From: Paenibacillus hexagrammi
Lineage (GTDB): Bacteria > Bacillota > Bacilli > Paenibacillales > NBRC-103111
Length of the DNA: 64,000 bases
NCBI RefSeq assembly: GCF_021513275.1
Contig: NZ_CP090978.1
Coordinates: forward strand, 3,968,001 to 4,032,000
Direction: 5' to 3'
This document shows positions 26,448-54,450 of the stretch, in pieces. The notes below the pieces were generated by a model, which saw only the letters and a list, made by a program, of their open reading frames with translations, ran no database searches and was not told the DNA's origin. How positions within the stretch are numbered: the stretch's first letter is position 1; each line of letters begins with the position of its first letter. The translations under genes and the position numbers were made by a program.

Positions 26448-29400
26448 TTAGAACTTCTGCGCAATCGCCGCTAAGTCAATAATGTCGATTCGGTTATCAT
26501 GGTTGATATCGTACCGTTGAATTTCAGACCAGCTGCTGTCGGTCGAGTCGACTCCATTATGTGCGGAGATGATACCCAGGTCACCTACGCTAGCAACTGA
26601 ATTCATAGCTGCCAAGAAATCTTCTCGGGCAGAATTAACCTCTTGTGCGGCTTGACTAACTTCAGTACCATCTGCGCCTGCACGGTTGAATACTTCGGCA
26701 GCCTTGGCAATGGCAGCAGCCAGTGTATCGTGTGCCGCCTGAGGATATTGCCCCCATCGAACCCCAATGGAAGAAGCGTCAAGTACCGTTTGCGCACTTT
26801 CCATATTTGAGCCAAGAACCGACTTGGAGGGCTGGAATTCTAATCGTGCCCTAGCCGCTTGCAAATTGCTTACCGCCGCATTGACTTGGGCTTGCGTTGC
26901 CAGCAGGTTGCTCTGAATCTCCTTAGCCGAAGTCAAGTAGCTTTGAAGAAGTGCCCACGAAGAAGTGGTATAACTCTCGGAAGCCAGAGAATCCGACGAT
27001 GAAATTTGGCTGCTTAACGCTGCTTTATCAATAAGTACATCCATCGAATGAATGGTGTCCGCAACCATCGAGATCGTACCATGTACATCTTGGATTTCCA
27101 TCTCTTTGAGTCGAAGAATTGTTTTCGAATCGCCTGGATGTTCCAACCCGACTGCATTCCACTTGATTCTCATCATATCACCATGAGGGACGACCCCAGC
27201 TGTACCACTTGTCATGATAAATGTAACTTTTCCAGCCGTTTGGTCGTTTTCGATGGATGTCAATGCAAGCCCATCTACCAGCGACTCAGCCGAAACAAAG
27301 TGAATCTGCTCCGGATCATACGTCATGGTGAAGCTCTGGCGAACAACAGGTGTATTCGCATTACTTGTCATACTGTCATGATTAAGCCCATATACGAGCT
27401 CAAATTCTCGATCTACTAAGGCAGTAGTTCCTCCACTAATGACAGCCAATGGTACTGTTTCCGATGGAGCTTGGATGTTTACGCTAGCTTCATCGGAAGG
27501 AATGCTTTCGCCAGCGGAGTTTACGGCTGTAACCACATAGTAGTAAGTTCCCTCAACCATCCCGGATTCATAAAAAGCATTGCTTGTTACGTTAGAGGCA
27601 ACTGTTTGGTAATCCGTACCGCTGGTTAGACTGCGTTTCACCACATATTGATCCGCCCCGGCAACGGCATTCCAGGATAAGTACACTTGGGATGCCCCAG
27701 TGATGGCAGTAAGATGGGCTGGCGCTTGCGGGATCGTGATCACCTCAGGAATCACGATAGCTGCAGGGCTAATCCCTGTCCCCAACTGCCAAGGGAATCT
27801 GGCATTGGCGTATTCCGTATTCTGCAAAATAATATTGTTTGCATAATTACCTGTTAGTCGCAGGAATGTGCTCGTTCCTGTCGGGACATCCACATGATTG
27901 AACCAAACATTCGACGCATTGCTCATGTCGTAGATTACGCCTGTTGCAGGAACAATTTGTACATGATTTAGCTGCACATCCGCAATATTGTTGGATACCC
28001 AACCGGTATTCGATGTCATCTTCACATTCGTGAAAACAATATCATGAACCGGTACATTTTGAAGCGCGTCAATGGTTACTGCCTGATCGGCGCCATTCAC
28101 AGTAATATTACTGATTGAAATCTGTTTCAATTCCGGCACACGCTTATCAACGCCAAGTTGGGCGTTATCTACAGTATCGTTATGGCCTGTATAGAAATCA
28201 CTGAAGCTAATGGCAGAACCAAGAATATTGTCCATATGGATGCCATCGAAATAAAGGTTTTCGATCGGTCCGCCGCCGCCGACATAAGATTTGATGTTAA
28301 TGCCGGTATCCGTACCGATGTATTGATTGTTAAGGAAGGCTAGATTTTTAAAGCCGCCCGAGGTGTTGCTCCCGAATGAAACGCCACCATGTCCGCGGAA
28401 AACGATATTGTTGGCGACAACCACATTCGTTTGAGTTTGGATGGAGCTTGGATCACCGCTGGCCTTCATTCCGATGTCGTCATCCCCGGCATTCACTGTG
28501 TTATGGTACATCACGACATTTTGTGAAGAAGTCACATCCAGACCATCACCATTCTGGAACCACCAGTCATTGTTGGCCGTTGTATTTCTGATTACAAGAT
28601 TTTGAACTCTGGTGAAGCTGCCGGCATATACAGGGCCGTTCATGAATGTGGGACCGTCGACAAGAACATTTTTACTATCTGCAATATTAAGCAATATGGG
28701 TCTAGCCACATCAACAGCTTGCTCGGACGGATACCACATACTTTCATCTTCGCTCAGTACTCCACCCATGGAAAGCAAATAATTCCATTGTGTAGTCGTA
28801 ACCTTGCTCTTCTTGACAGGTCTCCAGTATTGACCATTGCCGTCAAATACTCCATTGCCGGTGACCGCAATGTTCGTTACACCTGATGCATTCAACTGAT
28901 GTCTGATCGGGCCATTCACTTGTAAAAAGTCATCCAGGTCAGAGCTGAATAAGATGGTCGCACCGTCTTCCAGATGAAGATTCACATTGTTCTGCATCAC
29001 AATAGGCCCCGTATACCAAACACCGGCAGGAACAATAACGCGGCCACCGCCAGGATTGGCTGAAGCGGCTATAATCGCCTGGTTAATTGCTGAGGTATTC
29101 TTCGTTACTCCGTCTCCCACTGCGCCATAGTCCACGATGTTGAAGTCCTTATCAGGAAACGTATACAGTGTCATGTTTGGCATGTCGAAAGGTAACCCTG
29201 TTACGTATGACTGCAGATCGTCACCGCCGGTAGCATAGTTCACTGAAGATTTGGTTTGGACAGTTACATCTGCGTCAACCACTATATCCATTCCTTTTAT
29301 CGTACCTTGAACGGTAAAGTTTCCCGCACTTGCATATGAGGCCGGACTTACGCTATTCCATACGACAGGCAGCGCCTTCTCAGAAGTATCCGTGTAGGTG

Positions 29401-30629
29401 ACAGGAACGATGGAAGGCAAGTAGGGCGCTATCCCTTCAAATGTATAGAGATGAAGCGGCATGACATTCGAGATTGTTTGGCTGGGCAATATGGATGTAT
29501 TGCTTACCTGAATCTCAAAAGGAATAGTTCTGCCTGAATCGAACGTAAATACTAACGTATTTGTACCTAAAGGCAGTTGCTTCAAATAGGATTTATTGAT
29601 TGTAAACATAGGATCTGCAATTGAGAAATCTTTATCTTGCACTAATGTATACGATCCGTTCGTAATCGATGTTACAGCTTCACCTTGAATCTGGACCGAA
29701 ACTTGAATATTGGCTTGATTCAACATGTTGCGATCAAACGACACTTCTGCGCTTGACAACGATGCTGCGCTTGAGAATGCACTTTCACCATTTTCATTGA
29801 CCGCAGTTACGGTATAGGAATAGGGAGTTCCGGTGTTGACCACCGTATCCGTGAATTTGACCTTTCCTTCCAATCCCTGATCGATCTCGATCCAATTTAA
29901 GTTGAATTTCCCCGTTACAGAGGAAACACGAAGTGTTTGGGGACCTGCTTGTAAGGCTACAATGGCATTAACCGTATCCCAATTCTGCCAACCGCCAGTT
30001 AATGGTACGTCGACTGTGCCCAGTACAGTGCCATCACTTGATTTTACTTGCAGCTGCTTCCCGCTGTCTGGAGCTGACACACGTAATTTTATCGTATAGA
30101 ATCCATCAGCAGGCATATCGACTGCATAATCCATCCAATCTCCTGCGTCGATATAGCCAACATCTTGACCGCCGCCAACATCGGACGTCGTTTCAAGCTT
30201 TACCCCATCCATTGCGTTGTAATTCTCAGCTTCAACTGTCGTAACTGGCGTCGTCACCTCTGACTGCAAACCGCTTGCGATTTGCGAGTAGCCTCCGTCA
30301 GGACTGGAACTGCGATATACATTGTAGCTGCTAGCACCAGGAACGATGTTCCATAGCAGACGGAGCGGTGTATCTCCCAGGGATGCTGTTGCGCCATTTT
30401 GATACGAAATGGACAACTCTGTTGGAGCAGCAGGCGGCTGTGCTCCCCTAGGAAGGGTGCCGAATAACGTTGGATCCCAAGCATCTGTTCCTTGGAAGAT
30501 GTTTTGTACGGTATATTCATTGGCTTCGTTTGCCGTCAATTGTGTGGTCCACTTTTGTCGGGCTTTAGGGTTAGCCCCTGCTCCATAGCTGTTGTATTCC
30601 CCATAACGTGCTGTTAATTCATTGGCTTC
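26448..30629 (-). CDS. Giant pectinase B, 3' part: FN3/CBM, X2, GH28 polygalacturonase, cohesin, FIVAR, dockerin
   Basis: This is the downstream part of the gene beginning at 33793, separated from it by a frameshift at 30629-30633. The first open start (30539) has no ribosome binding site, and the residues before it continue the upstream pectinesterase. The order is: the end of CE8; an FN3 domain with a CBM6/35 nested inside; an X2-like module; a bacterial Ig-like (Big_4) module; a GH28 right-handed beta-helix (FNIVDYGAVGDG, NGDGLDV, GDDDIGMK, RGHGGVSFGS, GINIKS); FN3; a cohesin; two FIVAR-like helical repeats; and a dockerin. Only the second Ca loop of the dockerin (DINHDNRIDIID) is intact. 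The protein is secreted and would cleave de-esterified homogalacturonan. Confidence 0.9.
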   Translation of the reverse strand, partial: EANELTARYGEYNSYGAGANPKARQKWTTQLTANEANEYTVQNIFQGTDAWDPTLFGTLPRGAQPPAAPTELSISYQNGATASLGDTPLRLLWNIVPGASSYNVYRSSSPDGGYSQIASGLQSEVTTPVTTVEAENYNAMDGVKLETTSDVGGGQDVGYIDAGDWMDYAVDMPADGFYTIKLRVSAPDSGKQLQVKSSDGTVLGTVDVPLTGGWQNWDTVNAIVALQAGPQTLRVSSVTGKFNLNWIEIDQGLEGKVKFTDTVVNTGTPYSYTVTAVNENGESAFSSAASLSSAEVSFDRNMLNQANIQVSVQIQGEAVTSITNGSYTLVQDKDFSIADPMFTINKSYLKQLPLGTNTLVFTFDSGRTIPFEIQVSNTSILPSQTISNVMPLHLYTFEGIAPYLPSIVPVTYTDTSEKALPVVWNSVSPASYASAGNFTVQGTIKGMDIVVDADVTVQTKSSVNYATGGDDLQSYVTGLPFDMPNMTLYTFPDKDFNIVDYGAVGDGVTKNTSAINQAIIAASANPGGGRVIVPAGVWYTGPIVMQNNVNLHLEDGATILFSSDLDDFLQVNGPIRHQLNASGVTNIAVTGNGVFDGNGQYWRPVKKSKVTTTQWNYLLSMGGVLSEDESMWYPSEQAVDVARPILLNIADSKNVLVDGPTFMNGPVYAGSFTRVQNLVIRNTTANNDWWFQNGDGLDVTSSQNVVMYHNTVNAGDDDIGMKASGDPSSIQTQTNVVVANNIVFRGHGGVSFGSNTSGGFKNLAFLNNQYIGTDTGINIKSYVGGGGPIENLYFDGIHMDNILGSAISFSDFYTGHNDTVDNAQLGVDKRVPELKQISISNITVNGADQAVTIDALQNVPVHDIVFTNVKMTSNTGWVSNNIADVQLNHVQIVPATGVIYDMSNASNVWFNHVDVPTGTSTFLRLTGNYANNIILQNTEYANARFPWQLGTGISPAAIVIPEVITIPQAPAHLTAITGASQVYLSWNAVAGADQYVVKRSLTSGTDYQTVASNVTSNAFYESGMVEGTYYYVVTAVNSAGESIPSDEASVNIQAPSETVPLAVISGGTTALVDREFELVYGLNHDSMTSNANTPVVRQSFTMTYDPEQIHFVSAESLVDGLALTSIENDQTAGKVTFIMTSGTAGVVPHGDMMRIKWNAVGLEHPGDSKTILRLKEMEIQDVHGTISMVADTIHSMDVLIDKAALSSQISSSDSLASESYTTSSWALLQSYLTSAKEIQSNLLATQAQVNAAVSNLQAARARLEFQPSKSVLGSNMESAQTVLDASSIGVRWGQYPQAAHDTLAAAIAKAAEVFNRAGADGTEVSQAAQEVNSAREDFLAAMNSVASVGDLGIISAHNGVDSTDSSWSEIQRYDINHDNRIDIIDLAAIAQKF

Positions 30630-33600
30630 CCCCAGTTAAACCATCCGTCGGGAGCAATGTGTGCGTCCATGTCTGTATGGATGTACTTCACGTTCGCATA
30701 GCCTCTCCAAGGTCTGCCTAATTCAGTGGAGCTGTCGATAGCCGCAGGATTTTGATCGATATCCCATGCGGGATCCCAATTCGCCACCTGCCCCTTTAAG
30801 AAAGAAGTCCCTCTTGTCAATTTTGAATTAAGGAAAGTGTAGCCGTATGGCGATAGCTGATCGGTGGATGCCGCCGTGACATAACCGCCGCCATTACCTA
30901 CCATTTTTATTTCTGAATGATCGAAAATGGCGTTAGCATTTCCAAAAATCCAGTCAACATCACCTTCAATTATAGAATCCTTAAAATATTGCCGGCCGGA
31001 GTTAATATATAACGTATCCTGATAGCCGACAATTCGTACGTTATTGAAGTATGCCCGGTCAGCAACTACAAAAAGTGCAACAGAAGGACCGGCAGTTGAT
31101 CTTGGGAAAGAAGAGTTTTGGAAGGTTAGGCTTTCAGCTGAAAAATCACTCGCTGTTACCTTGACCGAAAAGCTATTGCTCGTTCCTACGACTGCGTAAT
31201 CATCATAGGTAAGAATGGTTCCGTCCCTGCTTTCACCTACCAGACTAACAAAAGGCTTGTTAATGGTGAGCTTCTCTTTGTAAACACCGTTCTTCATGAA
31301 AATGACTTGTCGTGTGGTGTTAGAACCAGAGATCGAGTTAATGGCGTCCGTAACCGTCGTAAAATCTCCGGTTCCATCTTTCGCTACAATAATTACATTC
31401 GCTGGAGTAGCACTCCGAACATTACTTCTGTTTCCCTCTCCCTGATCATTCACCGCAGAAACGGAATAGAAATAGGTCGTTCCATTCGTTAGCCCCATAT
31501 CTGTAAAACTGGTTTCCGAAACGCTTGCTATTGTCTCATAGGGTCCTTCATATGTAGTCGCACGTTTAATGGAATAAGTCGCTGCACCTGCAACTTCACT
31601 CCACTGTAGAGCAACCCGATTACTGCCGGGTACAACCTTTACATTTTCCGGCTTAGAAGGCGCGCCATCCTTAAGATGAAACGGATAAGCGGCAACCTGA
31701 TCGGAATTCATGCTAGTTGTACTTGAACTATTAGCCGAAACAACATAGTAATAAGTCGTATCATTCGTAACCGTCTCATCCTTGAAAGTCAAATCAGTCA
31801 CGTTATCCGCAACAACAGCGTACGATCTGCCAGACAGCGTGCTCCTTTTTACCGTATAGGAAGCAGCTCCCGGAACTGCACTCCAAGTCAAAGTAACACT
31901 GGAATTCCCTTCGTTTGCCGTGAGACCATCTGGTCTATCAATAGGTACTACTGGTGTCATTTCGATAACGTTGGAGTTTCCAATGATCCCGCTGGAGCTT
32001 TTCGCTTGAATCACATATTGATAATTCGTTCCATCCGTTAATCCAGCGTCCGTATACGTTGTTGCTGATACCCCAGTAGCGAGAGATTGATACGTATCTC
32101 CCCCATTATCGCTTCGAAGCACATCATAACTTTCTGCACGATCAACGGCATCCCACTGCAGAGAAATTTGACTATCTCTCGCTGTGCCTTGAAGTACATA
32201 AGCCGCAACTGATAAAGGGGTTACCGCAACAGGTGTGCTATAACTGCTTTCACCATATGAAGTCACTGCGCTTACTTGGTAATAATACGTTGTGTTATTT
32301 TGCAGATTGGAATCATTGAATGTATTTGCCGATACATTTTCAAGCTGTTGATACGGTCCATCTACGGCTGTACTACGTTTCACATTATAGGAGAGAGCTT
32401 TGGCAACCGGCGACCAGCCAATCGTGGCAGTCGTGTTTCCGGCTATTGAATACATCCCGTCAGGTGTAAATGACTTCACGGTAAAGTTCATCCAGTTAAA
32501 ATTAAAGCCGCCCTTGACCGCAGCGATTCTAAGAATCTGAGAACCAGCCTCAAGGTGAATGGTTGTGTTAACTGTTGTCCACCAGCTCCAGTTTCCTGTT
32601 GCCGGAATTTCGACTGTCGAAAGCACAGTGCCCTGCTGATCCATAAATTGAACTTTGCCTCCGCCACTTTTAGAAGCGACTCGAAGGTCCACCGAATAAA
32701 AATCAGTCGTGGCCACATCGACGTTGTAATCCATCCAATCGCCATCATCAATATAATCGACAACAGTTCCGCTGCCGCTGTCTGTGGTTGTTTCCGTTTG
32801 AACCCCATTCATTTCATACCAGTTCACAGCGTCGATTTGCCCCGGAATCGTTCCCGAAGACGTTGGAGTAGGAGTAGGAGGCGGAGCTTCTATAGCTGTA
32901 AATTTGATCCAATTCAAATTGAAGCCACCTGTTTTAGCATAAATTCGGATAGATTGGATACCGGCGGACAAGGTTGCCGTTGTACTGATCGTAGTCCAAT
33001 TCTGATAGCCGGTTGTATTGGGCACATATACCGCAGACGTCACGGTACTTGTTTGATCTTGTAATTGAATTTCACCGCCTGTGGGTGAAGCGACGCGATA
33101 ATCAACCGTATATGTGCCCGGATTCGTAACATTAACCATGTAGGTTAACCAATCGCCGGTATCAATATAGCTTACATTCAGCCCGCCGCCCGTATCTGAG
33201 GTGCTCTCTGTTCTTACATCACTCATCCCATCCCACGCTTCAGCTTCGATGATCCCAGGCGCGGCTTTGGGGAACGTCGCTGCATCGATGCTGGTAAATG
33301 CCAGCCAATTGAGATTAAATCCGCCTGTGCTCGTAGAAATCCGCACATTTTGTGTACCGGCATTAAGCTGGACCGGCAAACTAATCGTCGTCCACGTCTG
33401 AAAAGCTCTCGTGTTAGGGACGTACACGTTCGTCAATACGCTGCTGTTACTATCAAGAAGCTGGAATGATCTATCCGTATACTTGGAGGACACTCGAAAA
33501 TCAACTTGATAAGTACCTGTTGAAGGAACGTTAATCGTATACTCCAACCAATCCCCAGCATCAATATAGGCAACATCTTGACCGCCGCCTGTATCACTGC

Positions 33601-33793
33601 TTGCCTCAGCTTGAACGCCATTCATCGCGGTCCAATTCTCCGCTTCGATTTGTCCGGGAATATCGACTGCTGCAGCTGCACTAGCGCTGCTATACGCGGG
33701 AAGCAAGCTGAAGAGCAGCACAGAGACTAAGACTATAGCAAATAGTCTTCTGATCGAGGCGCCTTTTCCCATAAAGGGAGAGGCTACTACCAT
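30614..33793 (-). CDS. Giant pectinase B, 5' part: signal peptide, three CBM6/35, four FN3, CE8 pectinesterase
   Basis: The frame starts at ATG 33793 behind GGAGGG and stops at 30614, inside the pectinesterase domain. The order is: a signal peptide (residues 1-40, AYSSASAAAA); three CBM6/35-like modules (about 43-170, 175-300, 312-440), each with a GDW-Y-V motif and a GGFN(L/F)NW end; four FN3 domains (about 445-800); and CE8 with GYQDTLY, GDVDWIFG and LGRPW. Adding one G to the run at 30629-30633 continues the enzyme (WGEANELTARYGEYNSYG) into the 3' part, for 2448 residues in all. CE8 removes methyl groups from pectin. It is the last gene after the cohesin-SLH gene, 15 bp away. Confidence 0.92.
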   Translation of the reverse strand: MVVASPFMGKGASIRRLFAIVLVSVLLFSLLPAYSSASAAAAVDIPGQIEAENWTAMNGVQAEASSDTGGGQDVAYIDAGDWLEYTINVPSTGTYQVDFRVSSKYTDRSFQLLDSNSSVLTNVYVPNTRAFQTWTTISLPVQLNAGTQNVRISTSTGGFNLNWLAFTSIDAATFPKAAPGIIEAEAWDGMSDVRTESTSDTGGGLNVSYIDTGDWLTYMVNVTNPGTYTVDYRVASPTGGEIQLQDQTSTVTSAVYVPNTTGYQNWTTISTTATLSAGIQSIRIYAKTGGFNLNWIKFTAIEAPPPTPTPTSSGTIPGQIDAVNWYEMNGVQTETTTDSGSGTVVDYIDDGDWMDYNVDVATTDFYSVDLRVASKSGGGKVQFMDQQGTVLSTVEIPATGNWSWWTTVNTTIHLEAGSQILRIAAVKGGFNFNWMNFTVKSFTPDGMYSIAGNTTATIGWSPVAKALSYNVKRSTAVDGPYQQLENVSANTFNDSNLQNNTTYYYQVSAVTSYGESSYSTPVAVTPLSVAAYVLQGTARDSQISLQWDAVDRAESYDVLRSDNGGDTYQSLATGVSATTYTDAGLTDGTNYQYVIQAKSSSGIIGNSNVIEMTPVVPIDRPDGLTANEGNSSVTLTWSAVPGAASYTVKRSTLSGRSYAVVADNVTDLTFKDETVTNDTTYYYVVSANSSSTTSMNSDQVAAYPFHLKDGAPSKPENVKVVPGSNRVALQWSEVAGAATYSIKRATTYEGPYETIASVSETSFTDMGLTNGTTYFYSVSAVNDQGEGNRSNVRSATPANVIIVAKDGTGDFTTVTDAINSISGSNTTRQVIFMKNGVYKEKLTINKPFVSLVGESRDGTILTYDDYAVVGTSNSFSVKVTASDFSAESLTFQNSSFPRSTAGPSVALFVVADRAYFNNVRIVGYQDTLYINSGRQYFKDSIIEGDVDWIFGNANAIFDHSEIKMVGNGGGYVTAASTDQLSPYGYTFLNSKLTRGTSFLKGQVANWDPAWDIDQNPAAIDSSTELGRPWRGYANVKYIHTDMDAHIAPDGWFNWGKPMN

Positions 33794-33808
33794 AGGTCAT
33801 CCCTCCTT

Positions 33809-35572
33809 TTATTGTTGATTGAAGATGTTGTACATAAGTACAACCGTCTCGGCCCTGGTCGTTGTTGCTTTCGGATGAACACCTTGTTCATCTCCGTGAA
33901 TAATTCCTGCATGGACCAAACTGGAAACGCTCTCAGCAGCATACGAAGATATGTCCTTGTAATCGCTGAACTGAGCGAGTGTAGAATGATCTCCGTTTAG
34001 ATTCAAGCGGTTCGTTGCTTGTAAAGCTCTTGCAGACAAGACCATCATATCTTCTCTAGTAATGGGCTCGAGCGGGTTGAATTTATTGTCGCCAGCCCCT
34101 TCGGCAATTCCCAAGCTTCTAGCTATTCGCAGGGGTTCATTGTAATAAGCCTGATCCGGCACATCATCGAAGGCGGCGCCGAGCGAACCTTTCAGCTCTA
34201 ATGTTTTGACTAACAGGACCATGAAATCCGCTCTAGTGATGGCACGATTGGGTTGGAATTCAAGATCGGACACCCCGTTCACAATTCCCTTGGATGCCAT
34301 CACTTCAATCTGATGTCTTGCCCATTCAGTCGATGCAAGATCATGGAATGTTTTCGTCTGGTAGCCAATGGCATAGGTGCTGAAATGCGTAGTTGTAAAC
34401 GTCACTGCCCCACTAGTCTTATCGTACTTTCCACTGTAAACCGGAGTTATATGACCGTTACTCTCCACATACCACACAACGATATGTTCAGGATTCTGAA
34501 TTTCTTGACTAGTCGGCTCATAAGGGATACTTACAACCAAAGGCGCGCTATCGTTGCTCCAAGGAATGATCTCATTTCCAGATGTGAACGATAACTCGAT
34601 CGAAGGACGATTGAGATATTCATGGTCCCCTACTTTCAAATGGTCCACTGTTGACTTTTTGATATGAAGTTCAATCTCGTCCGCATCCGTCATACCACCA
34701 GGAAACAGATTATCAGGAATCGTCACACTGCCTACATCCGTACTTATTTCTATTTCTGCCTTCTTATCCGCATTGGAAAGCAATCGTGTCGGCAAAATAC
34801 TGACATACTCATCTGCGTGATTGTTGTTTTCAACCTCGATCTTTACTTTCTTCATTCCAGATGCATTGGTATTGGTCTTATCTAAGACTGCTTGTAACGC
34901 ATCTGGATTGACTGTAAAAGTAAATGATTTCTTACCTTCGTCGAACACCTCATGAGACGTTATCTTTTCTGGCGTTGCCGAGTCCGTACCTCCAGAATTG
35001 GAACCTGTCGAACCTCCGCCATTACCATTACCATTACCATTACCATTACCATTACCGTTACCGCCTCCGTTGCCGCCACCGCCATTTCCTCCACCTGGGC
35101 TCGAAATATGGGCTTCTACGAACTGTGAGCTGCTATGTTCAACCAAATCCAACTGGGAACTTACTACCTTTACACTGGATAAGCTGATTTTCGCATTTCC
35201 CGATTGAAGAGCTTTAAAGTTTACAGTAGCAAGTGTTGCGCTGCCGTTAGTACCAGATGTATCGCCGATTTCTGTATGCGTTAACTGAACCCCATTCGTT
35301 GTTAGCTTAGCGGATGCATCGTACCCCCCATGATTGGTATGATAATTAACAAAGCTCACTTGGGAGCTGTCAAAAGCAAGATTGATCTCATAGGCGTACA
35401 TATCCGAGAGATGATCAGCTAGAACGGTAACTTTAAAATCCGAGTTAACTGTAGGACTATCATTGGAGATTTGAAGTGTAAAGTCAGGCTCGTCGTTCGC
35501 TTTCGTCACTACGGGATTTGCTAGGATCGTGAAGCACATAAGAGCAAATAAAAGCTTTAATTTGGTCATCAT
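33809..35572 (-). CDS. Surface anchor protein: cohesin, Gly/Asn linker, three SLH domains
   Basis: The start ATG 35572 follows GAAGGAAGG, giving 587 residues. The order is: a signal peptide (to about residue 25, VVTKA); a cohesin-like beta-sandwich (about 28-155, with VLADHLSDMYAYEINLAFD and NGSATLATVNFKAL); a (Gly-Asn)n linker from a hexanucleotide repeat; a beta-rich domain (about 200-400) of unknown fold; and three SLH domains with TRAD, TRED and TRAE motifs at the C-terminus. SLH domains bind pyruvylated secondary wall polymer, so the protein would display one cohesin on the cell surface. It sits between two dockerin-bearing enzymes in one operon, which suggests it anchors them. Binding is inferred. 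Confidence 0.9.
   Translation of the reverse strand: MMTKLKLLFALMCFTILANPVVTKANDEPDFTLQISNDSPTVNSDFKVTVLADHLSDMYAYEINLAFDSSQVSFVNYHTNHGGYDASAKLTTNGVQLTHTEIGDTSGTNGSATLATVNFKALQSGNAKISLSSVKVVSSQLDLVEHSSSQFVEAHISSPGGGNGGGGNGGGNGNGNGNGNGNGNGGGSTGSNSGGTDSATPEKITSHEVFDEGKKSFTFTVNPDALQAVLDKTNTNASGMKKVKIEVENNNHADEYVSILPTRLLSNADKKAEIEISTDVGSVTIPDNLFPGGMTDADEIELHIKKSTVDHLKVGDHEYLNRPSIELSFTSGNEIIPWSNDSAPLVVSIPYEPTSQEIQNPEHIVVWYVESNGHITPVYSGKYDKTSGAVTFTTTHFSTYAIGYQTKTFHDLASTEWARHQIEVMASKGIVNGVSDLEFQPNRAITRADFMVLLVKTLELKGSLGAAFDDVPDQAYYNEPLRIARSLGIAEGAGDNKFNPLEPITREDMMVLSARALQATNRLNLNGDHSTLAQFSDYKDISSYAAESVSSLVHAGIIHGDEQGVHPKATTTRAETVVLMYNIFNQQ
35021..35062. repeat. Hexanucleotide tandem repeat coding for the Gly-Asn linker
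   Basis: Six perfect ATTACC units (35021-35056) are followed by one GTTACC. On the coding strand they give Gly-Asn pairs. Unit changes keep the frame and would change only the linker length between cohesin and SLH domains. Confidence 0.85.
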
Positions 35573-35642
35573 TCGGGCATTCCTTCCTTCCCCATTCAAT
35601 TTAGGAGGCAGCTTGATGCTACAACTGCCCCCTACATGCAAC

Positions 35643-38600
35643 TTAACTTCGGCTAATCACAATCTTGCGTGCCATTAGAACTAAATCAACGATATTTAAC
35701 TGATGATCTTGATTGAGATCGTATCTCTTGACGGATGACCAGTCATTTGACGTTGATGTCACCCCATAATGCTGGTCGATGATTTGAAGGTCAATGACAC
35801 CAGCGTTCGTGTTCATGGAAGCGTCAAAAGCTTGAATGGCTGCCGACAAGCTTTGCACCTCTTGATCAACAGCTGATTGTGCCGATGATGTATCGTTTTT
35901 TACTGCAAGCGCTTTTGTAATGGCATCATGTAGACGATTCACTGCATCTTGCGTATATTGTCCCCAGTAGGTTCCAATGGTGGCAGCAGCAGCTCGTGAA
36001 TTGGCTTCGTTCAGCTTAGTAATCAATGTGGTCATATCAGCAGCTTCGAAAGCTTCCACAGCAACCTCATAAGAAGTTCCGTCTACCGCAATTTCGTTGC
36101 CGCTGCCATCGCTTACCCATACTTTGCTCAAGTTGATGGTACTTGTCGTTGCTTGTGCCGAGCTATCGATCATGAATTGGAGCTGCAGAATTCGACTCAG
36201 ACTTCCTGTTAGTGATTGATCAGGTGAAGAACTCGCAATGAGGATTCTCACTTGACCTGGTGTTGTGACATGATGAATGACCGATACGCCATCAACTAAG
36301 GATTCTGCCGAGACAAACTGCATGTGCTCACTCGGGTAGGTGAATGTTAGATCCATCCCGTATACGCTCTGAGTTACACCTGAGAAACCATATACCAGCT
36401 CGAGCGACTGTCCCGCATTTACACGCTGCGGTCCAGTTAGAACACTACCTGCACGAACCGTAACTAATGCTGTTGCGTTCAGACTTGATCCATACACGGA
36501 GCCTGTAACGGTAAAAGTACCATTTTGGGCATACTGCTCAGGTGCAATTGGATCCCATACAACCGAAACCTGTGTAGTCGTTCCATTTGCATAAACAGCG
36601 TCTACCACAGACGGCAACAGGGGTGCAGTTCCCAGCGGTGTAGTCGTTTGGATGCTTGGAATAGATGTAATGGCTTCAGGATCCCAATCGTCAGTTCCAT
36701 TGATCGTACTTGACTTGCTAAAAATATTAGCAAGTGTATAGTCGCTTGCCTCTTCGCTTGTTAACTGGTGAGTCCAAGAAAGACGCGCAGTCGGATTGGC
36801 ACCGGGACCATAGCTGTTGTACTCCCCGTAATAGGCCGTTCTTTCATTACTTGCATTACCAAAATTGTTCCATCCCGTGGCAGCGATGTGAGCGCCGATA
36901 TACGAGTTCAAGTATACGGTTTTCGCGTAAGGTCTCCACGGACGGCCCAAATCCACGCCATTTTTTCCGTTTATCAACGGTTCTCCTGTCACTTTGCTAT
37001 CGAGGAATACATACCCGAACTTTTGCCCCAGCGGAGTGGATGCCGCCGTTACATGACCCGTTAGTCTTGAACGAAGCTCCGTATGATCAAACACCGCAAT
37101 CCCAGGTCCGAAAATAAAATCAACAGAGCCGGAGATATAGCAATCTTTAAAATAGGAACGATAGGATTGAATCGTCGTATTGTTTGCGTAATTCAGAGGA
37201 TCTGCGTTATCTGTTAGGTTACGAGTCAGTAATGTATCCTGATACGCAGTGATTCTGCTGTTCTCGAACATGACTTTATCCGCGTAGATATCGAGCGCTA
37301 CGGACTGCCCGGAGCCAGACCCTGACGTATTTCTAATCGTTAGGTTCTTCCCATAAAAATCATGACCCTTAATCATCAACGTATAGTCTGTATATGTGCC
37401 CAGCCCAAGCGAAGATCCATTTGCAGACGTTTTCTTGGGACTATCATCGTAAGTCAGGATCACACCGTCTTCACTTTCACCAATCATAGAAATATAAGGC
37501 TTACTTTCTGGAATAAGGACCTTCTCGTAATAGAGACCATTTTTCACAAAAATAACGGCTCTTCCGTCATTTTGATCCGGAACTGCATGTATGGCCTCTT
37601 GAATGGTTCTATAGTCACCGCTTCCATCGGCAGCTACCAGTATGAACTGCTTAGCCCCAGACGCTACATCAGGAAGGACAGAGATATAAGCGGTAACTGG
37701 GAGCTCCGCTCCTTGTACTGTTCCCGTTACTTTGAATCCGCTCACATTTGTATGAGCATATAATCCAGGCGAAATATCGTCCCAAACAACGGGAAGAGAC
37801 TGTGTTGTAAGATTATTCAGAACGGCTTTAACCTGATTAGGAAGTTGTGGAGCTGCACCCGCCGTTGTTTTCACGATTACAGGCAAGTAGCTATTTATGA
37901 CTACGGACGTTACATGGACAGTAATGGCAGCCCGTTGAGCATATCCTGTTACCGTTCCATAAATGGTGACCGTTCCCGGTTGTGCGAACTTGGAGGAATC
38001 CATGAAATCCCAGATCACCGGTGCGTAATCAACAGACCCATTGTCCAACATGACCGGAACTTGCGCAGGAAGAATCGGTGCTGCGCCTACAGCAGTTGTC
38101 ACCTGTAAGGGTTTAAATCCAATGACCGATTCTTGCCCTGTTATCGTAACCGGATACATCCCTAATATGGCGCTTCCATCATTCATGGATGCCGTTACAA
38201 GTACTTGGCCGTCCTGTTTTGCCGTAAGCACGCCATTTGCATCGATTGCTGCATGAGATGTAGGTGTCAGGTCGGTGTTGTATACAGCCCAGGTAACGCT
38301 CGAAGCCCCGCCGGTCGTTTTAGCAGCGCTGAAGCTCAAGCTGCCACCCTTCTCGGTAATGCTGCTTTTCCCATTAGATGGTTGAATGACAATTCCGTAG
38401 CCCGTATCCTCAGCTGAATCGCTGTGAACCTTCAAGTCATCGAGCATAACTTGTGAGGCCACAGTTGTATTATTATTAGGGCCAACCGATTTGAACGTAC
38501 TAATATCCGGAGTTGCCAATGTTGAATCATAGAAAGGCTGACCGCTCAGTACTTTATTACCGTTGTAGTAAACATCAACAAGCTTGTTATTATAGTCCAC

Positions 38601-40697
38601 TACCGTTTTTAGTGAGAACCAGGTATCAAGTGGAATCAACGGAATAATCGTTTGAGAGGTTTGGCCATTAATGACATAAGACAACGCACCCGAGTTTTCC
38701 GTATTCAACCAAAGGACGATCTTGCCGTTAGAAGAAAGCAATTGGAACACCCTATTATTTCCGGTAACCTTGGTCGCGTAGGTTCCCGTTGGTACGCCAT
38801 TACTTACATTCTGCGGGGTTAGAAATTTCATGCTGACCTCTACCGATGTCGTTCCTGTTTGTGGGGCAAAGCTGCGCTGAGCCGTTACATAACCTGCTCC
38901 ACGATCATTTAAATACATGCTGTTTGGACCGGATGCACCATCCGAAACAATATCTATAGAACCTAGATTACTGTTCGTAGTAGAAGGCGTCCAATATCCT
39001 CCTGGCGAATCCCCAACTTGATAATCCGAGAAGTCCTCATTCACGGGGAATGACTTGTCATATACAACTTCTCCGTCTTGGACAATGTTGCTGCTCTTCG
39101 TCAAGTTGATTCCTTGCGTCAATCTGCTGTCCTTGAAAAAGATATTTTCTGTATTCGTCAATATCGCTTTTGTAAACGCAACATTGATAAACTGTACGTT
39201 TTTCAATGTATTATCCGATGTAGGCGTAGAAGGTGCCCCTGTTAACGAGATTACGTTATCTGCTGCCGTACCCGCTGTATCATTATTAACAAGATTTATA
39301 AATCGGAAGTTGCTCATATCCGGCGGATAAATATCCGGTACATCCAATTTGTCATAATTGGAATTCAGATCGATTTTGTTAATCAGAGAATCTCGAACTT
39401 GAATATTTTTAATGTAACCGCCCCTGGAGGTGCTCGTTTTCACTTTAAAGCCCGGCGAAGCCGCATTGGATGAGACATCCACCGGAATCAGATTGCAATC
39501 CTCCGCATAGACGTCGCTGACGCCCCCTGACATTTCGCTGCCGATTACAATACCGCCATGACCGCCGCTGAACGTATCTCCACGGTAGTAAATAAACCGG
39601 GAAGGTCTGCCGATTTGACGCCCCTCTTCATTAATCCCGGATTTAATGGCACTGCTGTCATCTCCGGTTTGAAAGGTAGAATTCAGAATGTAAACGCTCT
39701 CGGAAGAGTTGGGATCAAATCCATCGCCGTTGTGCTGGGAGGTATTCACATCCAGATTGTATGCTGTAATGTCTTTGCTATACACAGGAACAATGGTCCA
39801 CATCATACCGTTACGGATTCGCAATCCATCCAAATAAACGTTATGAGCGTTACTCAAACCAATCAAGTGACCGCCGCCATAGGAATGCCCTACCTCATCA
39901 ACATCCTTGTCATACTCCTCACGCAGTAATAAACCATTCTCTTCATCACCAATCGTCCCCGGTCCCAGAATCGCAATGTTCTCAACTGAGTAGCCATAAT
40001 TCGTGTGATCTAGAACACCTGCATTGATGAGACTCTGATAGGCCTCCGGTTCTTCAAGACTATGTCTCTGCAAAACGAAAGGCATGAAATCGGCTTTCTT
40101 AGTACTCGGCATGATTGCAGCGCCTGCATCCACATAAACGGTCATATTACTGTGCAAGAATATGCCGCCAGTTACATAGGAACCAGCAGGAAAATACAAT
40201 GTATCGCCTGGTGTGACTGCATCAATAGCGGACTGAATCGCCGCAGTATCCAAGGTGCTTCCATCGCCTACAGCTCCGTAATCCTTAACATTGAAGCGCT
40301 TGCCCGTTCTTTTCGTCGTAATTTGAATGGTGTTGCTATCCAAGGATTCATTGCCATTCGCATCTTGTGCCCGAACCAAATAGCCATAGCTTGTTTCCGG
40401 GTTCAATCCAAGTACCTTGTAAAAAGTCTTATCCGTTGAACCGACTAGTGTCCCATCCAGATTGTAGATGTTATATCTAACAATATTGGAGTAATACAAA
40501 GGCTTTTCCCACACCAAGACCACCGACGCATCTGTATTCGACGCTGGTGCCATTCGCAAATCAGTTGGTGTATACATGCTCGAAGCATAACTGGAAGCGT
40601 TTACTAAATTAGATTTGTCAAATAGCGGTATCCCCGGCAAGTAGGAAGCAAGGAGTAACACGATCATCATCCACATACTTTGCTTCATCACTCTCAA
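35643..40697 (-). CDS. Giant pectinase A: FN3, GH28 polygalacturonase, Ig modules, CE8 pectinesterase, cohesin, FIVAR, dockerin
   Basis: The best start is TTG 40697, 6 nt after GGAGGG, giving 1684 residues; the frame also extends to 40739. The order is: a signal peptide; FN3 (about 40-130); GH28 (about 140-545; VKDYGAVGDGSTLDTAAIQ, NGDGFDPNSS, GDDSSAIKSG, GGHGGIVIGS); a LamG-like beta module (about 560-755); Ig-like modules (about 765-1045); CE8 (about 1065-1360; AYQDTL, GSVDFIFG, LGRPW); a further Ig module; a cohesin; FIVAR; and a dockerin with one intact Ca loop (DLNQDHQLNIVD). The GH28 resembles exo-polygalacturonases. De-esterification and hydrolysis on one secreted chain suit methylated pectin. 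The anchor gene follows 70 bp downstream. Confidence 0.93.
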   Translation of the reverse strand: MRVMKQSMWMMIVLLLASYLPGIPLFDKSNLVNASSYASSMYTPTDLRMAPASNTDASVVLVWEKPLYYSNIVRYNIYNLDGTLVGSTDKTFYKVLGLNPETSYGYLVRAQDANGNESLDSNTIQITTKRTGKRFNVKDYGAVGDGSTLDTAAIQSAIDAVTPGDTLYFPAGSYVTGGIFLHSNMTVYVDAGAAIMPSTKKADFMPFVLQRHSLEEPEAYQSLINAGVLDHTNYGYSVENIAILGPGTIGDEENGLLLREEYDKDVDEVGHSYGGGHLIGLSNAHNVYLDGLRIRNGMMWTIVPVYSKDITAYNLDVNTSQHNGDGFDPNSSESVYILNSTFQTGDDSSAIKSGINEEGRQIGRPSRFIYYRGDTFSGGHGGIVIGSEMSGGVSDVYAEDCNLIPVDVSSNAASPGFKVKTSTSRGGYIKNIQVRDSLINKIDLNSNYDKLDVPDIYPPDMSNFRFINLVNNDTAGTAADNVISLTGAPSTPTSDNTLKNVQFINVAFTKAILTNTENIFFKDSRLTQGINLTKSSNIVQDGEVVYDKSFPVNEDFSDYQVGDSPGGYWTPSTTNSNLGSIDIVSDGASGPNSMYLNDRGAGYVTAQRSFAPQTGTTSVEVSMKFLTPQNVSNGVPTGTYATKVTGNNRVFQLLSSNGKIVLWLNTENSGALSYVINGQTSQTIIPLIPLDTWFSLKTVVDYNNKLVDVYYNGNKVLSGQPFYDSTLATPDISTFKSVGPNNNTTVASQVMLDDLKVHSDSAEDTGYGIVIQPSNGKSSITEKGGSLSFSAAKTTGGASSVTWAVYNTDLTPTSHAAIDANGVLTAKQDGQVLVTASMNDGSAILGMYPVTITGQESVIGFKPLQVTTAVGAAPILPAQVPVMLDNGSVDYAPVIWDFMDSSKFAQPGTVTIYGTVTGYAQRAAITVHVTSVVINSYLPVIVKTTAGAAPQLPNQVKAVLNNLTTQSLPVVWDDISPGLYAHTNVSGFKVTGTVQGAELPVTAYISVLPDVASGAKQFILVAADGSGDYRTIQEAIHAVPDQNDGRAVIFVKNGLYYEKVLIPESKPYISMIGESEDGVILTYDDSPKKTSANGSSLGLGTYTDYTLMIKGHDFYGKNLTIRNTSGSGSGQSVALDIYADKVMFENSRITAYQDTLLTRNLTDNADPLNYANNTTIQSYRSYFKDCYISGSVDFIFGPGIAVFDHTELRSRLTGHVTAASTPLGQKFGYVFLDSKVTGEPLINGKNGVDLGRPWRPYAKTVYLNSYIGAHIAATGWNNFGNASNERTAYYGEYNSYGPGANPTARLSWTHQLTSEEASDYTLANIFSKSSTINGTDDWDPEAITSIPSIQTTTPLGTAPLLPSVVDAVYANGTTTQVSVVWDPIAPEQYAQNGTFTVTGSVYGSSLNATALVTVRAGSVLTGPQRVNAGQSLELVYGFSGVTQSVYGMDLTFTYPSEHMQFVSAESLVDGVSVIHHVTTPGQVRILIASSSPDQSLTGSLSRILQLQFMIDSSAQATTSTINLSKVWVSDGSGNEIAVDGTSYEVAVEAFEAADMTTLITKLNEANSRAAAATIGTYWGQYTQDAVNRLHDAITKALAVKNDTSSAQSAVDQEVQSLSAAIQAFDASMNTNAGVIDLQIIDQHYGVTSTSNDWSSVKRYDLNQDHQLNIVDLVLMARKIVISRS

Positions 40698-40805
40698 ACG
40701 AAACCCTCCTTTATCATCATTGGAACCATATAGCCTCATCGCATTCTTCGTTGAGTAGATCCCCCTCTCCTGCTCTATAATGAACTCCTATTACTTCCCC
40801 AATAT

Positions 40806-42407
40806 CTATTTCCACTCCCTATAGGAGAAATAATCAAAATCAGCCGCCTTAAGCTGTCCAGATAGATCTTGAACACACATCCCGACAAATGTGCCTGTAA
40901 ATCCCCAAGATCTGAAATACCCGTCTTGAGAAATGGTGGCATACTCATCAGATAGCTTGGCAGCATCCAAAACTGGCCCTATCAGGTTCCACTCACTGCC
41001 ATCCATTGAATAATAAAATTGCAGATAACTTTCATTAAAATGGACTTTTAGCCATACACGCATCGTGTCAGCAAGAGTAATGGGTTCCTCCAGCAATTCG
41101 TTATACTTCCCACGCATGGAACTGATCAGCTGCAATACAGGACCTTTGCTTTCTTCGTGAGTGAGATGCAGATAATAATGATTCTCGGTGTTGTAGTAAG
41201 CAATTAAGCCAGCCATTTGTTGAAAATGATCCGGTGTAAACTCCAAACATGTTTCAACCTCCGCTTTAAACGATTGAAGCCGTCTAGCCACCATGCTCTG
41301 ACGGTGTAAGGAATTCAGCGATTCCCTCCCCCTGATACGTAGCCAGCCAGGTCTTTCAGTTAACGACAACCAATCCGGGTGCGCGGGATCCCTTAACGTG
41401 CTGAAATGAACGGAAAGCTGCGTTTCATCAAAATGATCCAAGAACGGCACTTCAGGAAATGCATGGGAAGGCAGATTAGGGGGTTCCACTTCTTCCTGCG
41501 GACTCATGGTACTGTCTACAACACGCAACCATCCCTCTTCATTCCACTCACAGCGCTGAATGGCAGTTTCACGTCCCAAGTTGCATTCTCCATCTTCATT
41601 AACCGGTCTCGCACACAAATGAGCTATATACCATTCACCCGTCTGTGTTTCAACAAGACTCGCATGACCGGCTTTTTGCAATCGCAGGTGCGATTTTCCT
41701 TTGGAAGTAAGAACGGGATTGCATGGATCAACTTCATAGGGACCCGTCAGATTCCTAGAACGTGCAACCGTAACTGCATGATTGTAGCTGGTTCCCCCTT
41801 CCGCAACCATGAGATAATAGAACCCATCCTTTTTATACAAATGAGGTCCTTCCGTTCCTCCCAAACTCGTTCCTTTGAAAATCGTTGTAACAGGCCCTAT
41901 TAGTCTTCGCTGATCGGCACAATATTCTTGAAGGTTAATGCCATGGAATCGGTTTCGGCCTTTTCTATGATCCCAAACCATATTAAGCAACCACTTTCTC
42001 CCGTCGTCATCGTGAAACAACGATGGATCGAACCCGCTGCTGTTTACATATACAGGCTCAGACCAGGGCCCATGTATATCTTGAGCTGTAATTACATAGT
42101 TAGGTGTATCTTTGTAAACGCCTGTAAGGCACTTTACATTGGAATATAGTAAGTAAAACTGTTGACCATCATGGCTTAAACAAGGCGCCCAGACTCCACC
42201 GGAATTCGGACAACCGATCAAATTGAGTTGACTCATGCGAGTGAGAGGATGTGTAAGCAACTGCCAGTTTACAAGATCCTTGGAATGGTGAATTTGTACG
42301 CCTGGAAACCATTCAAATGTGGAAGTGGCAAGGTAATAGTCATCTCCAACTCTTAAGAAAGAGGGGTCAGGATTAAACCCTCTTAGTACGGGGTTTTGAA
42401 TTTTCAT
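40806..42407 (-). CDS. GH43 beta-xylosidase / alpha-L-arabinofuranosidase
   Basis: The 533-residue enzyme has no signal peptide, so it acts in the cytoplasm. The N-terminal five-bladed propeller has NPVLRGFNPDPSFLRVGDDYYLATSTFEWFPG (catalytic base Asp in NPDPS) and GTEGPHLYKKDGFYYLMVAEGG (catalytic Glu), as in GH43 xylosidases of the XynB3 type. A C-terminal beta-sandwich of about 200 residues follows. It would release xylose or arabinose from imported oligosaccharides. AGGAGG precedes the ATG. It is downstream of the two permeases in the same orientation. Substrate choice between xylose and arabinose is uncertain. Confidence 0.93.
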   Translation of the reverse strand: MKIQNPVLRGFNPDPSFLRVGDDYYLATSTFEWFPGVQIHHSKDLVNWQLLTHPLTRMSQLNLIGCPNSGGVWAPCLSHDGQQFYLLYSNVKCLTGVYKDTPNYVITAQDIHGPWSEPVYVNSSGFDPSLFHDDDGRKWLLNMVWDHRKGRNRFHGINLQEYCADQRRLIGPVTTIFKGTSLGGTEGPHLYKKDGFYYLMVAEGGTSYNHAVTVARSRNLTGPYEVDPCNPVLTSKGKSHLRLQKAGHASLVETQTGEWYIAHLCARPVNEDGECNLGRETAIQRCEWNEEGWLRVVDSTMSPQEEVEPPNLPSHAFPEVPFLDHFDETQLSVHFSTLRDPAHPDWLSLTERPGWLRIRGRESLNSLHRQSMVARRLQSFKAEVETCLEFTPDHFQQMAGLIAYYNTENHYYLHLTHEESKGPVLQLISSMRGKYNELLEEPITLADTMRVWLKVHFNESYLQFYYSMDGSEWNLIGPVLDAAKLSDEYATISQDGYFRSWGFTGTFVGMCVQDLSGQLKAADFDYFSYREWK

Positions 42408-42457: not shown

Positions 42458-43297
42458 TTATCCCTTCACGGATCCCCCGGCTAACCCCTGGATTAAAAAC
42501 CGCTGGATATACATGAACAGCAAAATAGGTGGAATCAAACCGATGATACTTCCTGCCGCAAGTGAACCGTATTCGACACTGTACTGGCCGATTAAGTATT
42601 TTAGGCCGATTGGAATGGTAAACTTCGACGCAGAAGTCAAGAATGAGAACGCGACTAGGAATTCATTCCAGCAGCCGATGAAGGCAAAAGCTGCCGTTGC
42701 GACAATCCCGGGAAGAATAACCGGTGTAATAATCGTAAAGATGACGCGGAACCTGCTTGCCCCGTCTACCATGGCCGCTTCGTCAATTTCCTTCGGAATT
42801 CCGCCAATAAATCCCTTCATCAACAGTGTGTTAAAGGCTACCTGCGATACAATATAAAACAATATAATCGCGTATGGCGTATTCATCAGCCCCATGCTTT
42901 TGAAGATGAGGAATAGCGGAATGACAAACAGGATTACCGGAAGCATTTGGGTGCTGAGCAGAATCAACATAAAGAGATTCTTCCCTGCAAATTTAAACCT
43001 GCTCAACGCATATCCATTGGTGATCGATAGAATGGCAACGAATATGACGGATACTAAACAAATAAATAGACTGTTGATGAAAAATCCCGAAAATTTATTC
43101 ACACTCCACACCTTGATGAAGTTATCAAAGGTTATCGGACTGGGAAAATAGTGAATGGTAGAGCTTAGAATATCTTCTTCCCGCTTTAATGAAGTGGAAA
43201 TGTCCCATAAAAATGGCAGTAGCACAAACAACAGTGTAGCTAGTAAAGGTATATAAAATAAGATCAAGGAAGTCAGCGTATGTCGTAATTTATTCAT
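42458..43297 (-). CDS. Sugar ABC transporter permease, MalG/MsmG type
   Basis: The 279-residue permease has six predicted membrane helices and the EAA loop (EIDEAAMVDGASRFRVIFTI), and ends in the usual QRFLIQGLAGGSVKG. ATG 43297 is preferred, behind AGGAG within the preceding permease gene; the open frame reaches 43306. With the MsmF-type partner and the binding protein at 47632 it would import oligosaccharides. No ATPase gene is present in the locus. Confidence 0.95.
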   Translation of the reverse strand: MNKLRHTLTSLILFYIPLLATLLFVLLPFLWDISTSLKREEDILSSTIHYFPSPITFDNFIKVWSVNKFSGFFINSLFICLVSVIFVAILSITNGYALSRFKFAGKNLFMLILLSTQMLPVILFVIPLFLIFKSMGLMNTPYAIILFYIVSQVAFNTLLMKGFIGGIPKEIDEAAMVDGASRFRVIFTIITPVILPGIVATAAFAFIGCWNEFLVAFSFLTSASKFTIPIGLKYLIGQYSVEYGSLAAGSIIGLIPPILLFMYIQRFLIQGLAGGSVKG

Positions 43298-44240: not shown

Positions 44241-44343
44241 TATTATTGATCACCTCTGTACTCATCATAAAATTTTAAAAGAATTATCTAAATAATATTT
44301 CTTGCAAATAGTGTTTGTTTTCTTCAATAAATGCCCGAGAAAC

Positions 44344-44372
44344 AAAAAAGCCCTATCCACCACGGGATAAGA
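44344..44372 (-). terminator. Terminator after the response regulator gene
   Basis: Minus-strand stem CTTATCC/GGATAGG with a 6-nt loop, followed by GCTTTTTT, between the regulator and the permease genes. Confidence 0.75.
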
Positions 44373-44417
44373 CTCGGTATGTAGATCAAGTAGGGTCCAT
44401 GGCGAGCTTCACTCTCA

Positions 44418-45693: not shown

Positions 45694-45694
45694 G

Positions 45695-47488: not shown

Positions 47489-47568
47489 AGGTTCCTCCGC
47501 ATGTTACCTTACTTTATGACATAAATTATACATCCAACCTATCTTCCAAATCTATTCCCACTCGTTTG

Positions 47569-47608
47569 AAAAACAAAGGACGAGCCCTTGTCAATTTCAA
47601 GGACTCGC
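47569..47608 (-). terminator. Terminator after the sugar-binding protein gene
   Basis: Minus-strand stem CGAGTCCTTG/CAAGGGCTCG followed by TTTGTTTTTC, in the 143-bp gap between the binding-protein gene and the kinase gene. Confidence 0.8.
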
Positions 47609-47631
47609 CTGCAATGCCTATGCCCGATGCA

Positions 47632-54443: not shown

Positions 54444-54450
54444 AAAAGAA

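Follow-up and report, generated by a model that had tools for sequence, protein, structure and literature searches.

A gene cluster of Paenibacillus hexagrammi probably encodes a surface-attached pectin module, in which a small wall-bound protein, the anchor, would use its cohesin to hold either of two giant pectinases, B or A, by the FIVAR-dockerin tail of the enzyme. The cluster lies in a stretch of 64,000 nucleotides (assembly GCF_021513275.1, contig NZ_CP090978.1, positions 3,968,001 to 4,032,000), here called the window, and coordinates are window positions unless a contig or genome position is named. On the minus strand between 26448 and 42407, the order of transcription is a GH43 enzyme, pectinase B, the anchor with its cohesin and SLH domains, and pectinase A, the last as two open reading frames (ORFs). 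An initial annotation had proposed that the small protein holds the pectinases on the surface, and that proposal gains support from gene order, from a matched control, and from co-variation of the anchor cohesin with the dockerin of its neighbor.

We envision that B and A are secreted, that the pectinesterase of either enzyme would remove methyl groups, and that its GH28 polygalacturonase-type hydrolase would cut the demethylated chain. The anchor would be fixed in the wall by three SLH domains and would present its one cohesin on a flexible Gly/Asn-rich stalk, where it may bind the FIVAR-dockerin, with its single calcium loop, at the end of B or A. Oligogalacturonides would thus be released beside the ATP-binding cassette (ABC) transporter encoded upstream. 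The module would be one instance of a wider scheme in the Paenibacillaceae. Large carbohydrate enzymes in many cases terminate in cohesin-(FIVAR)-dockerin, some of the tailed enzymes are accompanied by an anchor from the same operon, with a cohesin that changes in step with the neighbor's dockerin, and the enzymes' own cohesins could add further enzymes.

Gene order and anchor neighbors

The order B-anchor-A is conserved. It recurs in P. rigui (L110) and P. whitsoniae (L111), and a search of 104 family genomes for B (E ≤ 1e-150) turned it up in just the 3 that keep the triad; thus, the order appears to be more than chance. B is 63 to 64% identical to its counterparts in the two other species across nearly its whole length. 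The gap between B and the anchor is one base and that between the anchor and A is 15 bases, as measured from the start codons of the ORF list, which may be wrong. Three consecutive genes had been annotated, and pectinase, anchor and pectinase indeed stand back to back, but they make four ORFs, A being two, and B starts at 40739, 42 bases past the interval 26448..40697 in which it had been placed.

Anchors elsewhere also lie beside genes for tailed proteins. Twenty regions that contain relatives of the anchor were examined together with their flanks. In 18 of them, the anchor adjoins an ORF that bears cohesin and dockerin alike; in L109, the neighbor has a dockerin only, and in L092 neither was found. 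As a matched control, named genomes were scanned with an anchor alignment, and 79 loci were recovered, all of which encode the domain that precedes the SLH repeats (the mid domain) and some of which are the same places as the 20 regions. A dockerin was present in the flanks of 18 of the 20 loci that combine mid domain, SLH and cohesin (15 with a cohesin-plus-dockerin ORF, 3 with a dockerin-only ORF) but in those of only 2 of the 59 loci that gave no cohesin hit. For cohesin-plus-dockerin neighbors, 15/20 versus 2/59, Fisher's test gave P = 3.4e-10. The two cohesin loci that lack a dockerin neighbor are L113, which is the L092 locus and whose neighbor reads as N, and L164, on a 3-kb contig; the two loci that have such a neighbor with no cohesin hit, L120 and L150, are anchor-like in length and layout. 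We considered the mid domain as the special part of the anchor and rejected it, as 59 of the 79 loci, some in Clostridia, have it with no cohesin hit, and 57 of these have no dockerin in their flanks.

The neighbors of anchors are of many kinds: GH28/pectinesterase, GH3, GH5, GH43, PL8, a beta-helix protein with CBM9, and DUF2252. Thus, the rule is an anchor beside a tailed protein and not an anchor beside a pectinase. In the 23 pairs from outside the window that entered the analysis below, the partner is on the same strand, at a frame-to-frame gap of -106 to 218 bases.

Co-variation and cohesin classes

Anchor cohesins and neighboring dockerins vary together. Distance matrices were compared by Mantel tests over 24 anchor-enzyme pairs, namely, the window, 17 loci of the 79-locus scan, and 6 others. 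Left out were L113 and L164 (no readable neighbor), L109 (partner with no cohesin hit), and L135, L144 and L151 (dockerin-only neighbor), and for L120 and L150 the anchor cohesin was assigned by position. Correlation with the neighbor's dockerin was 0.73 for the anchor cohesin, 0.45 for the anchor mid domain, and 0.41 for the anchor SLH region. Given mid domain and SLH, the partial correlation of anchor cohesin and dockerin was 0.67 (P = 0.0003, the floor of 3,000 permutations); it was 0.62 when the sample was thinned to 18 pairs and 0.68 when the window, L110, L111 and L163 were removed. Given the anchor cohesin, by contrast, the mid domain retained no correlation (0.00, P = 0.49). The enzyme cohesin, given the anchor cohesin, kept a partial correlation of 0.40 (P = 0.0002). 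The co-variation matches what binding would predict, but it does not tell which cohesin a dockerin prefers.

Anchor cohesins largely form a class apart from enzyme cohesins. In a tree of 99 cohesins, 24 of the 30 anchor cohesins, including that of the window, fall in one clade (96/91) that contains no enzyme cohesin, and 67 of 68 enzyme cohesins fall on the other side. The remaining enzyme cohesin (L107) forms a neighboring group with four anchor cohesins, and two SLH-bearing cohesins of the window genome (1546800 and 1686107) group with the enzyme class. The tree is built from few columns with a midpoint root, and its bootstrap is not quite settled. Moreover, the anchor cohesin looks to be of a different type from the tail cohesins when profiles are compared to the PDB: the anchor profile best matches adaptor and anchoring cohesins of cellulosomes (3l8q, 8.4e-8, only at positions 3 to 55, or 53 positions), and NagJ of Clostridium perfringens trails (4.9e-4).

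A number of observations weigh against an anchor that holds its neighbors. Several neighboring dockerins score under the Pfam cut-off, for example, 20.6 (L095) and 19.9 (L097 and L112), and the loci are related, so the Fisher and Mantel P values are optimistic. L120 and L150, counted as anchors in the pair test, gave no cohesin hit, and the partial correlation falls to 0.53 when they and L107 are removed. The enzyme's own cohesin correlates with the dockerin at 0.74, and once the enzyme cohesin is taken into account, the anchor cohesin contributes less (partial 0.37, P = 0.0018); linked inheritance can account for part of the signal. Finally, pectinase A is broken in this assembly, and the pectinase dockerins lack the first calcium loop and score below the Pfam cut-off; binding by one-loop dockerins might be weak.

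The proteins of the locus

Coordinates and the basis of each assignment are given in Table 1. The description of the anchor as a secreted protein with one cohesin and three SLH domains held up: both domain types exceed Pfam cut-offs, and the N terminus by eye resembles a signal peptide. The anchor ORF starts with TTG, and the true start codon may be internal. Both pectinases combine pectinesterase with GH28, and the catalytic motifs look intact by eye when compared to those typical of such enzymes.

Table 1. Features of the pectin locus and its upstream genes
Feature	Window positions	Strand	Content and basis
Anchor	33809..35641	-	Signal-peptide-like start, cohesin, Gly/Asn-rich linker, mid domain, three SLH; Pfam, relatives, model
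Anchor-class cohesin	35153..35464	-	Pfam 26.7 bits (cut-off 24.1), E = 7e-6; anchor clade in tree; model, blocks of pLDDT 84 to 96
Three SLH domains of anchor	33839..34348	-	Pfam E = 1e-26, 3 stretches
Pectinase B	35643..40739	-	Weak fn3, GH28, Big_4 Ig-like domains, pectinesterase, cohesin, FIVAR, dockerin; Pfam
Cohesin of B, enzyme class	36069..36434	-	PF00963, 43.0 bits (tail alone), 44.7 bits (genome search); tail model; tree
FIVAR of B	35808..36038	-	Pfam 23.6 bits, under cut-off of 29.2; local profile; profile match to PDB 2jnk/2ozn
Single-loop dockerin of B	35661..35810	-	EF loop 1 lost, loop 2 intact; under Pfam cut-off; local profile; alignments; model helices
Pectinase A, first part	30614..33793	-	Three CBM6, fn3, most of pectinesterase (ended by frame break); Pfam; match to P. 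whitsoniae A
Pectinase A, second part	26448..30539	-	Pectinesterase end (by match to relatives), CBM6, X2, Big_4, GH28, fn3, cohesin, two FIVAR, dockerin; Pfam, local profiles
Cohesin of A, divergent	27078..27422	-	20.5 bits (genome search), 18.9 bits (tail alone), below cut-off; local profile 64 bits
Single-loop dockerin of A	26454..26597	-	Below Pfam cut-off; local profile; alignment
GH43 enzyme	40806..42407	-	Upstream of B, same direction; Pfam; by eye without signal peptide or tail
Sugar ABC transporter, AraC-family regulator, histidine kinase	42458..48999	-	Two BPD_transp_1 permeases, SBP_bac_1 binding protein; Pfam, over cut-offs

The tails of A and B are cohesin-FIVAR-dockerin. Each pectinase had been said to own a cohesin, which is clear for B and less so for A: the cohesin of B was absent from the whole-protein Pfam scan yet passed the cut-off when the tail was scanned alone, and that of A stays under the cut-off and is clear only with the local profile. 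Likewise, both were annotated as giant pectinases with a C-terminal dockerin. The pectinase domains of B are found by Pfam and its dockerin by local profile and model, but that dockerin scores below the Pfam cut-off of 22.9 (15.0 bits in the Pfam scan, 19.5 in the genome search, and 17.1 with the tail alone). The domains of A, dockerin included by local profile, are there as well, but they are spread over two ORFs, and the dockerin again falls short (14.4 bits in the Pfam scan and 19.3 in the genome search; unlisted at E ≤ 0.01 with the tail alone). An AlphaFold2 model of the B tail from 22 sequences is confident throughout, with a mean predicted local distance difference test score (pLDDT) of 96.4 and a predicted template modeling score (pTM) of 0.76, and shows three helices where the dockerin lies (219-227, 238-244 and 254-268).

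Why the dockerins score poorly is accounted for by the loss of calcium loop 1. Two calcium loops are the norm for dockerins. In an alignment of 73 dockerins, those of A and B have lost the loop 1 residues that bind calcium but retain helix 1 and loop 2. Loop 1 is kept in 65 of the 73 and lost in 8, which are all six dockerins of the three pectin triads, one in P. lycopersici (L163), and one in a further relative (L103). In the window genome, the loss is confined to 2 of 46 dockerins on cohesin-bearing ORFs, the two that adjoin the anchor.

Pectinase A consists of two ORFs in different frames, parted near 30540-30640. The pieces match successive parts of single ORFs in relatives, at 51 to 61% identity over both species: residues 318-973 and 1001-2218 of 2,221 in P. 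whitsoniae and residues 7-504 and 532-1751 of 1,754 in P. rigui. Other cohesin-dockerin tails of the genome are also broken by frame changes or stops, near contig C1 positions 1496500, 2674500, 2804500 and 3559000. With several tail genes broken in one assembly, uncorrected indels are as likely as real loss for A.

Loop-1 loss and the split of A together might indicate a decaying system that no longer assembles, and we consider this improbable. The split itself, the dockerins of A and B and the cohesin of A under their cut-offs, and the broken tail ORFs elsewhere in the genome are what decay would leave. Loop-1 loss, however, affects every one of the six triad dockerins, across three species, and all six keep loop 2 intact, which looks inherited and argues against random decay; A is whole in P. 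rigui and P. whitsoniae; and the broken tails also fit uncorrected indels.

Tailed enzymes in the genome and family

The tails resemble proteins of C. perfringens. A profile of 22 tails matched the FIVAR-dockerin of NagH (2jnk/2ozn, E = 1.5e-23, profile positions 134-265) and the cohesins of NanJ (2vo8, 3.3e-18) and NagJ (2ozn_A, 4.5e-15), with 2w1n, 2jh2, 2o4e and 2ozn_A all within 3e-15 to 5e-15; the next chain was 5nrm (1.5e-7). The likeness to C. perfringens cohesins and FIVAR-dockerin tails noted earlier is thereby borne out. As a single sequence, the B tail reached only 2vo8 (E = 0.0023) and not the NagH FIVAR-dockerin, and thus the link rests on the family profile. Because the profile matches both the NagJ cohesin and the NagH FIVAR-dockerin, relatives of the two partners of a solved complex sit here in one chain.

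Tailed ORFs are abundant. At E ≤ 1, the window genome gave 55 cohesin hits (53 over the cut-off) and 53 dockerin hits (48 over the cut-off), and 45 ORFs carry both modules by local profiles run on stretches around the hits. In all 45, the last dockerin ends within 5 residues of the ORF end, and in 38 a FIVAR lies between the modules. Families were scanned in the N-terminal parts of 44 of the 45 and include GH43 (8), the GH115 C-terminal domain (5), GH2 (4), GH28 (2), GH10 (2) and GH127 (2). At E ≤ 1e-4, a cohesin was found in 85 and a dockerin in 73 of the 104 family genomes, and the two counts track one another (Spearman 0.91, on the best 34 and best 55 scored per genome). A joint search of two Paenibacillaceae draft assemblies found 118 cohesin hits in one (G041) and 99 in the other (G028); both drafts are 6% contaminated and some of the hits sit at contig ends, so certain cohesins may be counted twice.

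The abundance of tails leaves room for another arrangement, in which dockerins bind mainly the cohesins of other enzymes, self-complementary enzymes polymerize into scaffoldin-free chains or nets, and a few anchors tie the network to the wall. We give this a serious chance, if somewhat less than an even one. The presence of both modules on 45 ORFs, the parallel counts across genomes, the excess of 45 tails over six cohesin-plus-SLH proteins, and the match of tail cohesin and FIVAR-dockerin to the partners of one solved complex all favor it. The co-variation of dockerin with anchor cohesin in the 24 pairs, which persists even given the enzyme cohesin, counts against it.

Alternatively, each dockerin could bind the cohesin of its own chain, such that the tail is a closed structural cap rather than glue. 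Both modules are fixed in one chain in the 45 ORFs, the B tail is modeled confidently as a single unit, and enzyme cohesin and dockerin co-vary. We find such folding back unlikely, as it leaves unexplained the cohesin-plus-SLH genes beside enzymes and their co-variation with dockerins, and the spacing between cohesin and dockerin ranges from 6 to 168 residues.

Is the anchor peculiar to the window? It is not: the genome encodes six cohesin-plus-SLH proteins, and relatives of the anchor occur in 90 of 104 family genomes (E ≤ 1e-30), although many among the matches listed span the mid and SLH part only. Beside three of the other five cohesin-plus-SLH proteins lies a dockerin gene, of a different type (ORFs at 1075863, 1689607 and 5057736), and one is itself large, with a beta-helix match. 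A minimal anchor at C1:1761824-1762864 (L033, 7846-8868) has one anchor-class cohesin and three SLH domains in 340 amino acids, with no mid domain; no dockerin neighbor was found in the stretch read around it, and it could serve other tails in trans. A second recurring pair, in Paenibacillus and a Clostridia metagenome-assembled genome, is a large cohesin-plus-SLH protein followed by a small dockerin protein (L135, L144, L151 and C1:1686107-1690635), and in the window genome the large member is a GH53 enzyme. The most cohesins found in one ORF of the genome is two (ORFs at 5055115 and 3479911). The latter, C1:3479911-3481515 (L042), has 535 amino acids arranged as cohesin-FIVAR-dockerin-cohesin-dockerin and little else, and is a possible linker between enzymes.

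Comparison to known systems

The initial annotation spoke of a mini-cellulosome, a label that we rejected. The cohesin-dockerin logic and the SLH-borne cohesin at the presumed surface do resemble a clostridial cellulosome with an SLH-anchoring scaffoldin, and the anchor falls under the definition of that class as at least one cohesin paired with SLH (PMC11557425). Moreover, A and B carry dockerins, as cellulosomal enzymes do, by local profile (B also by model), though under the Pfam cut-off. Unlike the clostridial cellulosome, however, the window genome gave no multi-cohesin primary scaffoldin, the anchor having one cohesin and no ORF more than two. Nearest are the FIVAR-dockerin enzymes of C. 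perfringens and the cohesin-plus-dockerin enzymes of P. guangzhouensis.

In C. perfringens, the two modules are described as belonging for the most part to separate enzymes, five with a cohesin and five with a dockerin (Adams 2008, cited in PMC12997984), and one GH31 protein carries both (PMC12997984). Like NagJ-NagH (PDB 2OZN; PMC12997984), the proteins studied here have one cohesin per enzyme and no scaffoldin, with an X82-type cohesin on a catalytic protein and FIVAR fused to a dockerin homologous to NagH. The dockerins of A and B depart from the two-loop C. perfringens type in having lost loop 1. Unlike what is described for C. perfringens (PMC12997984), each tailed enzyme here bears both modules, SLH anchors are present, and the predicted substrates are those of plant walls.

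P. guangzhouensis is reported to have five SLH anchors and 35 proteins with a cohesin. Among these proteins, 28 show one cohesin-dockerin pair, in many cases with an N-terminal GH, and the authors propose a cell surface that is rich in enzymes and differs from a conventional cellulosome (Minor et al. 2024, PMC11557425). P. hexagrammi likewise combines one-cohesin-one-dockerin proteins with several SLH-cohesin anchors. A "monovalent adaptor" of the P. guangzhouensis type, with a single cohesin-dockerin pair and often an N-terminal GH, describes B, which is one ORF, and A in the two relatives in which it is one ORF. That account covers one species from domain lists, and its section on P. guangzhouensis mentions neither pectin enzymes nor gene order and is silent on a class of anchor cohesins, on co-variation and on single-loop dockerins (PMC11557425).

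Other complexes of Paenibacillaceae differ. That of Paenibacillus curdlanolyticus is also multi-enzyme, with SLH domains in its S1 protein, but its assembly reportedly depends on glycosylation, and the greater part of the S1 sequence has no known homology (PMC6823336). Reconcilibacillus CelABC is a multi-enzyme complex described as having neither dockerins nor a cohesin scaffoldin (PMC6794216). In the open-license PMC literature, we found no pectin complex of this design, no operon-borne co-varying anchors, and no single-loop dockerins in Paenibacillaceae. The earlier statement that no such pectin complex is well described thus holds, within that literature, for the triad but not for the general design, which was published in 2024 for P. 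guangzhouensis (PMC11557425).

Tentatively, and with more doubt than confidence, we suggest that soil Paenibacillaceae have a third cohesin-dockerin organization. Self-complementary enzymes, each with a cohesin and a dockerin of its own and as many as about 118 cohesins in a genome, would form a net that needs no scaffoldin; operon-encoded anchors would tie this net to the wall and co-evolve with the dockerins of their own operon; and private codes, such as the single-loop FIVAR-dockerin, would reserve an anchor for pectinases. Cellulosome-capable bacteria come, with few exceptions, from four genera, and Pseudobacteroides cellulosolvens has 79 cohesins (PMC11557425). The 118 and 99 hits of the two Paenibacillaceae drafts exceed that figure, which was counted by another method. 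If anchors bind as predicted, they would amount to naturally occurring clips that fix enzymes to a surface, of use for designer complexes, and whether self-complementary enzymes assemble with no scaffold would become a testable question.

Surroundings of the locus

The block upstream of the GH43 gene is probably the uptake and control half of the locus, a link to pectin that we draw from position. An ABC transporter, an AraC-family regulator and a histidine kinase are what a polysaccharide-use locus would be expected to hold. A scan for promoters and terminators found sites no commoner than in shuffled sequence (29 versus 33.2 and 15 versus 14.8), so the boundary of the operon cannot be drawn from it. 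About 1.6 kb past the end of pectinase A, at 23346-24851, is a DDE transposase (DDE_Tnp_1, E = 1.7e-10). On the other side, 51360-59122 encodes GH95, an arabinofuranosidase-like protein and two esterases, and this half of the window thus looks like a plant-polysaccharide region. At the right edge, on the minus strand from 63236 to 64000 and on to genome position 4035387, is a GH31 enzyme with CBM6/CBM35 and a two-loop cohesin-FIVAR-dockerin tail, and further tailed enzymes (GH67 C terminus and GH115) follow beyond it.

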